This document shows positions 7,841 through 16,099 of a stretch of DNA of 25,260 bases, piece by piece. The first letter of the stretch is position 1. Every line of letters begins with the position of its first letter. This stretch comes from a virus. The DNA lies in the IMG/VR virus record IMGVR_UViG_3300032238_001497, positions 1-25,260 of that record. The stretch is one strand, 5' to 3'. A program made the position numbers and the translations under genes. The notes beneath the pieces are model-generated. The model was given only the letters and a program-made list of their open reading frames with translations, was not told the DNA's origin and made no database searches.

Positions 7841-8512
7841 ATGGCCAATCCCTATTTTAGACAAGTTCCCGATTTTGAGTATATCAGCAGAAATACTGGT
7901 AGAACAAATATATCAGATTATGTTGCAGTAAAAAATCTTTTTAAGAGAGCAAAAATTCGTGATGATATTGGAAATAATCTTTCTTACTTTACAAAGTACA
8001 AAATTATTGGAGATGATAGACCAGATACTGTAGCATATAAACTTTATGAAGATTCCACTCTTGATTGGGTAGTATTACTATCTAATAACATTCATAATGT
8101 ATATACAGAATGGCCTTTATCTCAGGATGCCTTTTTTAAATACATTGATAAAAAATATGGATCTATCGAAAATTCCTATCAAGTAAAGTATTATGAGACT
8201 ATAGAAGTAAGATCTTATGATGGACAACTTATTTTACCTGCAGGTTATAGAGTTCCAAAAGATTATCAAATTACTTATTATGATGCTGGTGTTGGTGCAG
8301 AAGAAACTAGAACTAATATAGTCAAAGAAGTTACTTTTTTTGAATGGGAAAATGCACAAGAGGATAAGAAAAGAAATATATTTGCTTTGAAAAAGAATTA
8401 TCTGACTGTTATCTTTAATGATATGGATTCGATCATGCCATATAAAGAGGGTTCCACTCAATATAAGAGTGAAACCCTGAAACGTGGTGAAAATATTAGA
8501 CTTTATAGTTAA
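7841..8512 (+). CDS. 53: Baseplate wedge protein gp53
   Basis: A 223-aa protein (T4 gp53 is 196 aa). The N-terminus MANPYFRQVPDFEYISR and residues 60-110 (DTVAYKLYEDSTLDWVVLLS, then NNIHNVYTEWPLSQDAFFKY) are diagnostic of gp53, whose wedge role is to lock the six baseplate wedges together. The C-terminal half holds an insert around IEVRSYDGQLILPAGYRVP and ends with KSETLKRGENIRLYS. It is the last gene of the plus-strand late operon. Its TAA overlaps the stop codon of the convergent gp32 gene in the shared tetramer TTAA, and no terminator hairpin is visible. Confidence 0.9.
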   Translation: MANPYFRQVPDFEYISRNTGRTNISDYVAVKNLFKRAKIRDDIGNNLSYFTKYKIIGDDRPDTVAYKLYEDSTLDWVVLLSNNIHNVYTEWPLSQDAFFKYIDKKYGSIENSYQVKYYETIEVRSYDGQLILPAGYRVPKDYQITYYDAGVGAEETRTNIVKEVTFFEWENAQEDKKRNIFALKKNYLTVIFNDMDSIMPYKEGSTQYKSETLKRGENIRLYS

Positions 8513-9494: not shown

Positions 9495-9523
9495 ATTCTA
9501 CCAGGGAGGTCAGGATTTGTCAA
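9495..9523 (-). promoter_or_regulatory. Sigma70-type promoter for gp32
   Basis: On the minus strand there is a perfect -35 TTGACA (9523-9518), a 17-nt spacer and -10 TAGAAT (9500-9495). The -35 lies in the last codons of the DUF1825-like gene and that gene's stop is in the spacer. Transcription would begin near 9488, leaving a leader of about 40 nt before gp32 that could hold a translational operator. Confidence 0.75.
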
Positions 9524-10485: not shown

Positions 10486-10749
10486 TTAAAAAACCAATTT
10501 TGCTCTGGAAGTTCTTTTTAGAAAATTTAATTCCATTGCATCATATTTAATTTTTTCCTTAAGTGGTTTTGAAATCAGTTTTGGTACTGATTCTAAATCT
10601 AAATTATTTGATTCGCAAAAATGAATAATTGCGTCAATATAATTCATTTCATGATTATTTTTCACAAGAATTTCAATCTCTTGTGAGAACTTTGATGGAC
10701 AGAAAAACTTACTTTCTAAAGCCTTTTCTAATTCTATTTCATGTTCCAT
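10486..10749 (-). CDS. 33: Late promoter transcription co-activator gp33
   Basis: An 87-aa protein starting MEHEIELEKALESKFFCPSK. The pattern EIEILV...MNYIDAIIHFCESN, then PLKEKIKYDAMELNFL, follows T4 gp33 (EKMVEEFGMSYLEATTAF, then IIEKIQSEAIDENLL). The C-terminus (AKLVF) is hydrophobic, as in T4 gp33, where the end binds the sliding clamp. Gp33 bridges the clamp and RNA polymerase to switch on late promoters. The frame is open further upstream, but that part lies inside the nuclease gene. ATG 10749 gives only an 11-nt overlap with GGAAG just upstream, so I chose it. It is somewhat shorter than T4 gp33 (112 aa). Confidence 0.82.
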   Translation of the reverse strand: MEHEIELEKALESKFFCPSKFSQEIEILVKNNHEMNYIDAIIHFCESNNLDLESVPKLISKPLKEKIKYDAMELNFLKRTSRAKLVF

Positions 10750-11419
10750 ACGCTTCCAGTTTGGATTGAATAAACTCTCTAATATACTGGACGAGTAACT
10801 TGATGTATTTTCTTTTGTCGTATTCTTCATAAACAATGCATTCTCCATTTTCGCAAGACATAATAATTACAAATTTTTTCACAGAAAGACCAGTCAATTC
10901 ATGCAACATACATGCATAAGCACAACACTGAACAAAATAATGTTCGATCCACGCCCTTGGTTTTGGTTTTTTTGAAGTCTTAAAATCTATGATAGAAAGT
11001 TCGCCATTATATTCAGCAATACAGTCTACTGTACCAGCAATACCTAAGAATTTGCTGTATAGTGAACTTTCAAGTGCATAGATATTATTTATAAGATCTA
11101 AATAGGGCACTGCATTTTGAAAAAGCATCTCAGATATTGGTAACACATCTGAGGGGCAATCCAAGTTCTTTAAATAAAATTCTGAAAGAGTGTGCATATC
11201 TGTACCACGACTAGTAGCAGCCTTAGTAATTCGATCTGCCTCTTCTTCACCAACTTTTTTTCGCCATCCTTCAAAGAATTTGCGGTTTTTATGACTGGTT
11301 ACAGAAGTAATAGAGACCAACTTTAGAAGTTGGTCTTCATCAGGAACTTTATAATAGCGGACCCCATCAATTGTCTCCCTTTCAAGTTGAGGAAGATCAA
11401 GATTAATATGATTGAACAT
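10739..11419 (-). CDS. PD-(D/E)XK nuclease (Cas4/RecB-like)
   Basis: A 226-aa protein. It contains SRGTDMHTLSEFY (H76, E80), GTVDCIAEYNGELSIIDFKT (D132, then D145-x-K147) and YFVQCCAYA (Q164 and Y168). These match the motif order H...D...DxK...QxxxY of Cas4, AddB and RecB-type exonucleases. All key residues are present, so it should be active. Phage nucleases of this type may degrade host DNA or process phage DNA ends; which applies here is unknown. No Cys cluster typical of Cas4 iron-sulphur domains is evident. It overlaps phoH by one base (TGATG) and gp33 by 11 nt, so it is in the same transcript. Confidence 0.85.
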   Translation of the reverse strand: MFNHINLDLPQLERETIDGVRYYKVPDEDQLLKLVSITSVTSHKNRKFFEGWRKKVGEEEADRITKAATSRGTDMHTLSEFYLKNLDCPSDVLPISEMLFQNAVPYLDLINNIYALESSLYSKFLGIAGTVDCIAEYNGELSIIDFKTSKKPKPRAWIEHYFVQCCAYACMLHELTGLSVKKFVIIMSCENGECIVYEEYDKRKYIKLLVQYIREFIQSKLEAYGT

Positions 11420-12177
11420 CAGAGATTTAATTCAGTTTTAGCAATAATGTATTCTTTAACCAGACCAGATCTTACAATATCTTCGATACCAAATTCGATT
11501 ACATCAAAAGAAGGCATTGCTCTCAGAATAGACATAAAATCAATGATACCATTTCTTTCATTTGTTTTTGTAAGATCTGACTGAGTTGCATCACCACAAA
11601 AACAAATGCGACTGTTCTCACCAACCCTTGTAATTATACTATCTAACTCGTGAAAATTCAAGTTTTGAAATTCATCGACAATAATAATTGCATTATCTAG
11701 AGTTGTACCACGAAGAAACGATGTACTCCAAAATTTAATTGTTTCTTGTGCCTTTAGATTACCATAAAGCATTTCAAAATCTGCATCTGAAGGCATTGAG
11801 AACATGTATTTTACCATGTTCTTATATGGGATTTGATACAGAGAAGATTTGTCTTCATGATCACCAGGAAGAAATCCGATTTCTCTTGTAGCAACTAAAG
11901 AACGAACAATATAAACTTTTTCGTATGGAGAGTTCTCGTCAAGAACATCTTGAAGTGCATTATAAAGAGTAATAAATGTCTTACCTGTTCCTGCACATCC
12001 ATAAGCAACTAAATGCTTACCTTTTTTATATGCACTGAATAATCTATTTTGATTATCAGTTAAAGGATCTACATTTAAAAGAAGATTATTACTAATCGGT
12101 TTCTTACGTTTCATTTGCTTAGTGGTCATACCAACGCCGATAGGTTGGTCACTTCCTCTTCTTCTGTTTCTAGCCAT
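11419..12177 (-). CDS. phoH: PhoH-like P-loop ATPase
   Basis: A 252-aa protein with Walker A GCAGTGKT (in YGCAGTGKTFITLYNAL), IVRSLVATREIGFLPGDHED, Walker B IIIVDEFQN and a later FCGDATQSDL (sensor-like). This is the PhoH ATPase core without extra domains, the usual form in marine phages. The N-terminus is basic (MARNRRRGSDQP). PhoH is phosphate-responsive in E. coli, but its role in phages is unsettled; a nucleic-acid ATPase or helicase role has been suggested. It follows the 80-aa gene by 6 nt and overlaps the nuclease start. Confidence 0.93.
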   Translation of the reverse strand: MARNRRRGSDQPIGVGMTTKQMKRKKPISNNLLLNVDPLTDNQNRLFSAYKKGKHLVAYGCAGTGKTFITLYNALQDVLDENSPYEKVYIVRSLVATREIGFLPGDHEDKSSLYQIPYKNMVKYMFSMPSDADFEMLYGNLKAQETIKFWSTSFLRGTTLDNAIIIVDEFQNLNFHELDSIITRVGENSRICFCGDATQSDLTKTNERNGIIDFMSILRAMPSFDVIEFGIEDIVRSGLVKEYIIAKTELNL

Positions 12178-12614: not shown

Positions 12615-13370
12615 TTAAGGGGAAAGTCTTGCTTTATGCAGTCTTTTCTCTTCATAATAATGGAAAACTTCAGGAACCCATTCTTTAATAATTGGAACCA
12701 TACCTTCACAAAGGGCCTGAATTTCAACTTGAGCATCGAGTTTTGCTCTTAGATCAAGAAAGTGAAGTGCTGCACGGAGAGAAAATGATACCACGAAATT
12801 CTGACGGATATTCTGCGGAAGATAATCCCTCAGATGTTCTTCAGCCATACCACGCTTCTCATACCCCTCTGCATACCGCTCAGATGCCGCTAGACAGAAC
12901 TTTAACTGCCTTTCATAGTCTTCCCTTGTCCATTCGTATTTGTGCCCCTTACGGTCCAAATACAGACCCTCTGGGCGAACGTAATAAACTTGCTCAGGTT
13001 TAAGTTCTCCCTTTGCAACTTTGAGAACACGGCGACCCGTATAACGTTGAGACTGAACATCGAACGATACACCAACGCGATGAGTCCGTGCTTGGACAAT
13101 TACATTATGAACAAATCCAACGCAGTCCATAGTAATCGCAGGATGCTCCAACGGACCCCAGTGTCCACGTTCATTTGCAAGTAACTGCTCAATAACCCAT
13201 TTACCACATTCTGCTTCCCTTGGTGGAAACTTAGTATGAATAGGTTCCTCAGAGTAATCATTTTTTCCTGCTTGGTAAATGAGTGTCTGTGGGAGTTGTG
13301 TCTGCCTAAGCATCACAACTTTCATTTCTTTATCTAGTTCTAAAAGATCTTTTGCTTTAATTGGTTTCAT
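12615..13370 (-). CDS. thyX: Flavin-dependent thymidylate synthase ThyX
   Basis: A 251-aa protein. It makes dTMP from dUMP using methylene-tetrahydrofolate, FAD and NADPH. The ThyX motif is at residues 95-110: RTHRVGVSFDVQSQRY, a slight variant of RHRxxSxNExSxRY with Thr after the first Arg. Further signatures are NERGHWGPLEHPAIT (flavin site region) and HFLDLRAKLDAQVEIQ near the end. It supplies thymidine for phage DNA in a host that may also use ThyX. The frame extends to a TTG at 13379, but ATG 13370 is preferred, 5 nt after the 55-aa gene. The gene is clearly richer in G+C (45% in a sampled 60-nt line) than most neighbours. Confidence 0.95.
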   Translation of the reverse strand: MKPIKAKDLLELDKEMKVVMLRQTQLPQTLIYQAGKNDYSEEPIHTKFPPREAECGKWVIEQLLANERGHWGPLEHPAITMDCVGFVHNVIVQARTHRVGVSFDVQSQRYTGRRVLKVAKGELKPEQVYYVRPEGLYLDRKGHKYEWTREDYERQLKFCLAASERYAEGYEKRGMAEEHLRDYLPQNIRQNFVVSFSLRAALHFLDLRAKLDAQVEIQALCEGMVPIIKEWVPEVFHYYEEKRLHKARLSP

Positions 13371-13375
13371 AATTT

Positions 13376-13543
13376 TCAATCAGGATATCCATCGTCATCT
13401 TCAAAAATTTCATCATAATCTTCAACATAAGGAGCAATTTCCTCATACTTATAAGAATCTGTATCTGAATAAATTTCAGACTTTAAACATTCTACCAAAG
13501 ATTCTAAATTTTTAACGATGAGTTTGAGTTTTTCTTTTTCCAT
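13376..13543 (-). CDS. Acidic 55-aa hypothetical protein upstream of thyX
   Basis: A short ORF: MEKEKLKLIVKNLESLVECL, then KSEIYSDTDSYKYEEIAPYV and an acidic tail (EDYDEIFEDDDGYPD). It has a helical N-terminus and a very acidic C-terminus. An AAGGAG lies 11 nt before the ATG, and a promoter (TTGACT-17-TAGAAT) ends just upstream. It is 5 nt from thyX, so it is likely the first gene of the thyX transcript. I recognise no family. Confidence 0.65.
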   Translation of the reverse strand: MEKEKLKLIVKNLESLVECLKSEIYSDTDSYKYEEIAPYVEDYDEIFEDDDGYPD

Positions 13544-13564
13544 AATTTTAGTTTCTCCTTCTTC

Positions 13565-13593
13565 ATTCTACACAAAAAAAGAGAGGCAGTCAA
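13565..13593 (-). promoter_or_regulatory. Promoter embedded in the speD terminator
   Basis: The minus-strand -35 TTGACT (13593-13588) forms most of the terminator loop. After a 17-nt spacer that includes the T run comes -10 TAGAAT (13570-13565). Transcription would begin near 13558, just before the AAGGAG of the 55-aa gene. It restarts transcription for thyX and beyond. Confidence 0.7.
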
Positions 13594-13600
13594 CCTCTCT
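13574..13600 (-). terminator. Intrinsic terminator after speD
   Basis: On the minus strand AGAGAGG, loop TTGACTG, CCTCTCT, then a T run. The stem begins within the last codons of speD, and the loop contains the speD stop codon. Confidence 0.85.
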
Positions 13601-13919
13601 CAATATAACTTAGAGTATGATCATTTGCATAAAGTTGGTGGATAATAATATCACATCCAATCTTGGGATTACAATCACCACAAGTATAAACATCAACTGC
13701 TGCTTTGCCTTCTTCAGGCCAAGTATGAATGCTTATATGACTCTCAGAAAGTAAACAAATTACAGTAACTCCTTGAGGATCAAATTTTTTTGAAATTGTT
13801 TGAACTACAGTAGCACCACTAGCAACTGCTGCGTTTTCTAAAAGTTCTATAAGATAATGTTCATCGTCTAAAAGTACGAATGAACATCCATATAAGTTAA
13901 GTAGATAATGCTTTCCCAT
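13590..13919 (-). CDS. speD: S-adenosylmethionine decarboxylase proenzyme SpeD
   Basis: A 109-aa protein. It decarboxylates S-adenosylmethionine to give the aminopropyl donor for spermidine. The self-cleavage site is intact: LLSESHISIHTWPE with S60 as the future pyruvoyl residue, H65 as the processing His and C80 in DVYTCGD. These equal S63, H68 and C83 of the bacterial class, with a constant offset of 3. The length is normal for the short bacterial/archaeal type. No spermidine synthase is in the window, so it probably feeds the host pathway. A TTG start exists at 13928, but ATG 13919 gives the usual MGKHYLLNLYGC. It overlaps the upstream 66-aa gene by 23 nt. Confidence 0.94.
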   Translation of the reverse strand: MGKHYLLNLYGCSFVLLDDEHYLIELLENAAVASGATVVQTISKKFDPQGVTVICLLSESHISIHTWPEEGKAAVDVYTCGDCNPKIGCDIIIHQLYANDHTLSYIERG

Positions 13920-14097
13920 CTTCTCCAAGTTCTTTTAATAAATTTGTGACGATCTTTTCGGATCCATCCATCATTTTTACAGCGAACAAAGGAGACTTCA
14001 TATATTTTTTAATTTTTTTATAGTCTTTTAAAATCTTCTTTACTTCGTCTTTATTGATTTCGACTTCAATCTTTTCTTCGCTAAATCCTTCACTCAT
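13897..14097 (-). CDS. Hypothetical 66-aa charged protein
   Basis: A 66-aa protein, MSEGFSEEKIEVEINKDEVK followed by KILKDYKKIKKYMKSPLFAV and KIVTNLLKELGEDGKALST. It is highly charged, probably helical with a short beta segment, and has no membrane part. It begins inside the stop codon of the upstream gene (ATGA overlap) and overlaps speD by 23 nt, so translation is coupled on both sides. I recognise no family. Confidence 0.65.
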   Translation of the reverse strand: MSEGFSEEKIEVEINKDEVKKILKDYKKIKKYMKSPLFAVKMMDGSEKIVTNLLKELGEDGKALST

Positions 14098-15441: not shown

Positions 15442-15760
15442 GATTATACTTCCATGCATCTTCAAGAATACCGTAAAGGTAATTCCTTATTTTTCTTGCC
15501 TGTGGTTTTGGAATATGTCCATATGCTTCACGAAGTTGCTTATGATCGTTATCAGAACCACCTTCTAGATAAGCATCAAGGTCCATTACGAGATTATTGA
15601 TATTTGAAGCTGTTGCGCTTTCAATAAATTGTTCTACTTCTAATCTTTTAGTGCCTCTGATTTTCAAATAATCATAAAATTTAAGAACAAAATGACCATC
15701 AAAAGCAAGATCTATTGCTCTTTCTACATCAAAATAAACTTCGTTAAATGTTGTTTCCAT
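15401..15760 (-). CDS. Conserved hypothetical 119-aa protein
   Basis: A soluble, mostly helical 119-aa protein: METTFNEVYFDVERAIDLAF, then GHFVLKFYDYLKIRGTKRLE, LVMDLDAYLEGGSDNDHKQL and REAYGHIPKPQARKIRNYLY, with a basic end (KRPGRRKKGSK). I do not recognise a family. The ATG overlaps the glutaredoxin stop (TAATG), so it is the second gene of that transcript. Confidence 0.72.
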   Translation of the reverse strand: METTFNEVYFDVERAIDLAFDGHFVLKFYDYLKIRGTKRLEVEQFIESATASNINNLVMDLDAYLEGGSDNDHKQLREAYGHIPKPQARKIRNYLYGILEDAWKYNHDKRPGRRKKGSK

Positions 15761-15999
15761 TAAACCAATTTTTGCTCCTTTAGATACTTAACAGTTTCTG
15801 TACAACCACCAAGATGTTCTTGATCATTTAAGAGAACTTGTGGAAATGTTGAACCCTCACCAAACTCAGCATAAAACTGATCCCTATTAAAGTGTTCTCC
15901 CAATTTGTAGATAACATGTTCAAGGTTTGTTAATTGTAGCACCTGTTCAATTTTACTGCAATAGGGGCAGCCACTTTTCGAATAAACAGTGAATTTCAT
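15760..15999 (-). CDS. nrdC: Glutaredoxin
   Basis: A 79-aa protein with the redox motif C11-P-Y-C14 (SKSGCPYCSKIEQ), a cis-Pro loop in STFPQVLLND and the C-terminal LGGCTETVKYL glutathione-site motif. It reduces disulphides and in T4 the analogous NrdC donates electrons to ribonucleotide reductase. An added Cys lies in the GGC motif. It is the first gene after a terminator-promoter element and heads the block running to speD. No clear Shine-Dalgarno is seen in the AT-rich leader. The symbol is by analogy with T4 NrdC. Confidence 0.9.
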   Translation of the reverse strand: MKFTVYSKSGCPYCSKIEQVLQLTNLEHVIYKLGEHFNRDQFYAEFGEGSTFPQVLLNDQEHLGGCTETVKYLKEQKLV

Positions 16000-16039: not shown

Positions 16040-16068
16040 AGTATACAAAAAAAGGAGGAAAAAGTCAA
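16040..16068 (-). promoter_or_regulatory. Promoter embedded in the fibre-block terminator
   Basis: The minus-strand -35 TTGACT (16068-16063) is exactly the terminator loop. After a 17-nt spacer comes -10 TATACT (16045-16040). Transcription would begin near 16033 and serve glutaredoxin through speD. Confidence 0.7.
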
Positions 16069-16078
16069 TTTTCCTCCT
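16047..16078 (-). terminator. Intrinsic terminator after the 1029-aa virion protein
   Basis: On the minus strand AGGAGGAAAA, loop TTGACT, TTTTCCTCCT (a perfect 10-bp stem), then a T run. It lies 22 nt after the stop of the virion gene. Confidence 0.9.
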
Positions 16079-16099
16079 CAAAATTTATTTTGATTAAAA

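Follow-up and report, generated by a model that had tools for sequence, protein, structure and literature searches.

The element at positions 13565-13600 (minus strand) is very probably a composite of an intrinsic terminator and a sigma70-type promoter nested within it, which would cut off a variable upstream gene and start an operon of replication genes. It lies in a DNA stretch of 25,260 bp, here called the window, which is a complete record and comes from a marine virus of cyanobacteria. The observations behind this reading were the anatomy of the element, its enrichment, the pairing-preserving variation of its stem and its fixed site; more than 100 related viruses retained the layout despite differing letters in the hairpin.

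Anatomy of the element and its gene context

Read on the minus strand, the element runs AGAGAGG-TTGACTG-CCTCTCT, followed by a T run and by TAGAAT, within the sequence ...GAGAGAGG TTGACT GCCTCTCT TTTTTTGTG TAGAAT GAAGAAGGAG AAACTAAAATT ATG.... The terminator hairpin (13580-13600) consists of a 7-bp stem, with arms at 13594-13600 and 13580-13586, and the loop TTGACTG (13587-13593). The fold of 13579-13601 gave -12.9 kcal/mol, and in relatives the pairing was kept with changed letters. Seven T's (13574-13580), also T in relatives, come next and fill the promoter spacer's downstream half. The -35 box TTGACT (13588-13593) lies inside the loop, and the -10 box TAGAAT (13565-13570) stands at a spacer of exactly 17 bp.

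A G+C-rich stem, a short loop and a T run define an intrinsic (Rho-independent) terminator, and all three were present. The two boxes, with a spacer within the 16-18 bp of a sigma70-type promoter, scored 10 of 12 matches to that promoter type on sequence only. The original prediction of this stem, of TTGACT in its loop and of a 17-bp spacer that includes the T run before TAGAAT was thus correct base by base, and so was its placing of the speD stop codon within the loop, since the TGA at 13590-13592 is part of TTGACT. As read from these features, a single 37-bp element combines the signal that ends one gene with the signal that starts the following one. An Rfam search of the window gave no match.

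The upstream gene is speD (S-adenosylmethionine decarboxylase; 13590-13928, minus strand; PHROG 3125, E=5e-41), and the hairpin should end its transcript. Downstream, a small gene of 55 aa and unknown function (13376-13543, minus strand; PHROG 878, E=1.4e-18) is placed under the putative promoter, with the ribosome binding site AAGGAG at 13555-13560. The transcript start is predicted near 13558-13560 and the start codon is at 13543, so that the leader would be only 15-18 bases long. The same strand then carries thyX, the second gene of the operon (12615-13379), PhoH (11419-12177), an exonuclease (10739-11419) and a gp33-like late-transcription protein (10486-10848). The annotation of the isolate S-SRM01 has the identical gene order in this operon.

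Among the relatives, the upstream genes differed and the downstream gene was constant, the PHROG 878 gene following most of the nested modules. The element goes with the operon that follows it (PHROG 878, thyX, PhoH, exonuclease and gp33), and speD is incidental. The design had been described as one found after speD; it is indeed present there, but it is not specific to speD and is anchored to the gene downstream.

Other signals were seen on the minus strand of the window. One of its two best sigma70-type matches, TTGACA-17-TAGAAT with a TG before the -10 box (9495-9523; 11 of 12), immediately precedes gp32 and lacks a hairpin. A terminator (AGGGTTTCACTCTTATATTGAGTGGAACCCT) follows gp32 at 8448-8478, and four relatives (L009, L028, L102 and L165) keep a TTATATT-type loop.

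Enrichment in related viral contigs

The sample comprised 249 IMG/VR loci of relatives, gathered by searches for speD, glutaredoxin and PhoH plus one DNA pattern, together with the window, 2.5 Mb in all. TTGAC[AT] was found in or at the apex of 112 of the 425 distinct terminators (TTGACA in 49, TTGACT in 63). The reverse complement was found in 2, and permutations of the same letters gave a mean of about 1. With looser removal of duplicates there were 136 modules among 462 terminators, and in 122 of these 136 the -10 box stood at exactly 17 bp.

The full geometry, that is TTGAC[AT] in the apex and a -10 box at 17 bp, was present in 106 of the 147 terminators before the PHROG 878-thyX operon, a count that reflects one site retained in many phages and not 106 independent events, since these copies are orthologous. 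At other sites it was present in 16 of 315 terminators. The reverse-complement control gave 0 at the main site and 0 elsewhere, and permuted hexamers with the full geometry averaged 0.05 each at the other sites. The enrichment expected of TTGAC[AT] in loops with a -10 box at 16-18 bp was therefore very strong.

These AT-rich genomes yield many promoter-like matches, and the element could on that ground be a plain terminator whose promoter boxes arose by chance. Nevertheless, the controls gave 0-2 against 106-112 and the spacer was almost always exactly 17; as a general account this explanation was refuted by the enrichment, and for the present element it is extremely improbable.

The window holds a second nested element, GAGGAGGAAAA-TTGACT-TTTTCCTCCTT with a T run and the -10 box TATACT (16040-16079, minus strand; fold -14.9 kcal/mol), upstream of a glutaredoxin gene (15760-15999, minus strand). 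The two elements agree at only 13 of 28 variable positions, which makes a recent duplication unlikely. The view that their stems are unrelated, with a shared design and no simple duplication, was borne out by this figure and by the 90 different stems at the main site. Duplication of one cassette within a genome was unsupported except in two contigs (L099 and L119). Glutaredoxin was also considered as a conserved second site and was rejected, as just 3 of the 157 regions upstream of glutaredoxin had the nested layout.

The results supported a recurring module in which the design is common and the stems are unrelated. The recurring regulatory module that had been proposed does stand before several different genes, but it occurs mostly at one conserved site and in only 0-3 copies per genome.

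Conservation of the pairing, the spacer and the T run

The 158 distinct upstream regions of the main site contained 144 hairpins, with TTGAC in 120 and a spacer of 17 in 132 of the 144. In anchored relatives the arms around the fixed TTGAC paired in five registers; many arm positions were paired in every anchored sequence, whether by G-C, A-T, C-G or T-A, and T occupied five spacer positions in 115 of 115.

Since these counts were drawn from sequences in which a hairpin had already been found, two tests free of this circularity were run. Stems of at least 7 bp formed with their own arms in 48 of 52 distinct cases, compared with 18.0 when the 5' flanks were swapped among sites. In a set chosen without regard to hairpins, namely IMG/VR promoters with an internal T run, a nested hairpin was found in 67 of 120, compared with 1.0 after shuffling of the 5' flanks. 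On the strength of these two tests, selection appears to act on the hairpin as well as on the promoter boxes, with the stem sequence itself largely free to vary.

This pattern bears on the possibility that the inverted repeat is an operator, at which a protein would bind the dyad over the -35 box and no terminator would exist. A dyad centred on the -35 box is a common operator position. Nevertheless, a protein that reads sequence would hold the letters and not the pairing, and here one site carried 90 different stems with the pairing retained and a T run in all anchored members; an operator is thus very unlikely.

In a variant seen in six loci (L364, L371, L382, L388, L392 and L406), a second small hairpin (CTGG...CCAG) lies directly 5' of TTGACA, within arms such as GGAGGT/ACCTCC.

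Distribution among phages and genes

At the PHROG 878-thyX site, the isolates Sf-CH11, S-SCSM1, S-SCSM2R, S-RSM4 and S-SRM01 had the nested layout with a full or nearly full -35 box, and SynMITS9220M01, S-CAM3 and ACG-2014h had the hairpin with a weaker one. The site was not nested in S-CAM9, S-8S55, S-RIM2, S-RIM32, S-SSM6a and P-HM2; some relatives had no hairpin there, or had the hairpin and the promoter apart, and S-PM2 had a terminator and no clear promoter. The phage Bellamy (L589) showed a reversed order before position 401, in which the promoter TTGACT-16-TAGAAT comes first and a terminator hairpin, ending 5 bases short of the start codon, comes after it. Judged from its sequence, this arrangement would look like a leader attenuator.

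Scans of whole genomes found 0-2 modules in S-PM2, Syn9, P-SSM2 and S-SRM01, direct scans of four large IMG/VR contigs found 1-3 modules each, and most terminators in these phages were not nested. Other genes downstream of modules were hli and, judged by eye from the translations, those for the clamp loader gp44, the DNA polymerase gp43 and the helicase UvsW. A single, fully specified version of the module, which covers just part of the loop registers, turned up in 113 stretches of viral contigs; species-level bacterial and archaeal genomes gave only 2 stretches, both from Clostridia, and one of the two was nested. Nested hairpin-promoters were also seen in five loci (L359, L367, L373, L409 and L425) whose first genes are unlike those of T4-type cyanophages; the layout may therefore have arisen more than once.

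The variable genes upstream and the constant gene downstream would also suit a mobile cassette, similar to the promoter early stem-loops (PeSLs) discussed below and kept mainly as a site of recombination between phages, and L099 and L119 each carry nearly identical copies at two sites. Against this, copies within a contig were hardly more alike than copies in different contigs (16.6 versus 15.7 of 28 positions), and a genome holds so few copies that this explanation seems unlikely.

Proposed function

Termination, initiation, early timing and an insulating role are the functions that we propose for the composite element, which would work as follows. A polymerase arriving from the upstream gene, here speD, would make the RNA hairpin and the U's and would stop in the T run. 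On the same DNA, the sigma70-type holoenzyme of the host would bind TTGACT in the loop and TAGAAT beyond the T run, and the PHROG 878, thyX, PhoH, exonuclease and gp33 operon would be transcribed from this promoter. Such an operon for replication and nucleotide metabolism would stay under its own early promoter, whichever gene sits upstream. One 37-bp element could do both tasks, since the 17-bp sigma70 spacer is filled by an 8-9-bp 3' arm with the remaining loop bases, about seven T's and a further 2-3 bases.

A further, tentative possibility is that the nesting is a tuned switch, in which a polymerase halted within the T run occupies the promoter and either occludes it or is recycled after release of the RNA. 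The termination point does fall within the promoter, and the RNA polymerase of Escherichia coli often stays on the DNA after intrinsic termination and can restart nearby (PMC6978380), with reinitiation at 37% of terminations and at 55% with added sigma. This evidence on recycling comes, however, from E. coli and not from a cyanobacterial polymerase; compactness alone explains the geometry, and many related phages do without the nested layout. Selection of the nesting for itself, with the terminator delivering polymerase to the inner promoter or blocking it there, and with the end of the upstream operon setting the rate at which the replication operon starts, is just as doubtful a suggestion.

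The composite of terminator and promoter, which remains the preferred reading, gives a simple rule, based on sequence alone, for locating early operon starts in T4-like cyanophages. Many phages hold the two signals in 37 bp by fitting a hairpin arm and a T run into the 17-bp spacer. The question of polymerase occlusion or recycling lends itself to study at the conserved site upstream of thyX, PhoH and gp33, and the element might be of use in cyanobacterial genetics as a compact insulator-promoter.

Comparison with known systems

A literature search for a promoter inside a terminator loop did not find this layout, which is weak evidence, as few subscription papers were covered. In the passages found of a 2010 comparison of cyanophage genomes, promoters and terminators were predicted separately and nesting went unmentioned.

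Early T4 promoters, which use the host sigma70, belong to the same TTGACW-17-TATAAT class, but they normally lie outside hairpins. Intrinsic terminators of the ordinary cyanophage type, which have UUCG or GAAA loops, likewise consist of a hairpin and a T run, often with a -10-like box next, but carry no -35 box in the loop. In many cyanophage terminators (L264, L270, L565, L571 and others) the T run leads directly into a late-promoter-like TATAAATA; by its sequence, this is a second putative kind of fused stop-start element.

The closest known system is the promoter early stem-loop (PeSL), a composite promoter-terminator of T4-type phages (Arbiol 2010; Comeau 2014; both cited in PMC4503421). 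The cyanophage paper PMC4503421 found few PeSLs in S-PM2. A PeSL combines, within a short stretch between genes, an early promoter of sigma70-like type with an intrinsic terminator, next to variable genes; judged by sequence, the present element shows this combination too. The strong sigma70-like promoter of a PeSL was found here. For the terminating stem-loop of a PeSL, the element offers a hairpin and T run with conserved pairing, which are predicted to end transcription. Numerous similar copies that bring about modular shuffling are a further PeSL trait; here each genome held 0-3, and those within one contig were not clearly more alike than those of different contigs.

The order of the parts differed. 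RB49 places its hairpin and T run ahead of a complete promoter, whereas the present element has its -35 box within the loop and uses the T run as spacer. When the RB49 genome was read directly, 12 of its 31 terminators were in tandem with a complete promoter and 0 were nested, and the composites legible from the T4 genome were also tandem and not nested. The relatives of the window had 140 nested elements versus 20 with the -35 box downstream. Given this contrast between tandem and nested order, the element is called a nested variant that would work like a PeSL, and not a proven member. The most fitting description is that of a nested form of the T4-type PeSLs already known, from whose tandem order in the directly read RB49 and T4 sequences it appears to differ.
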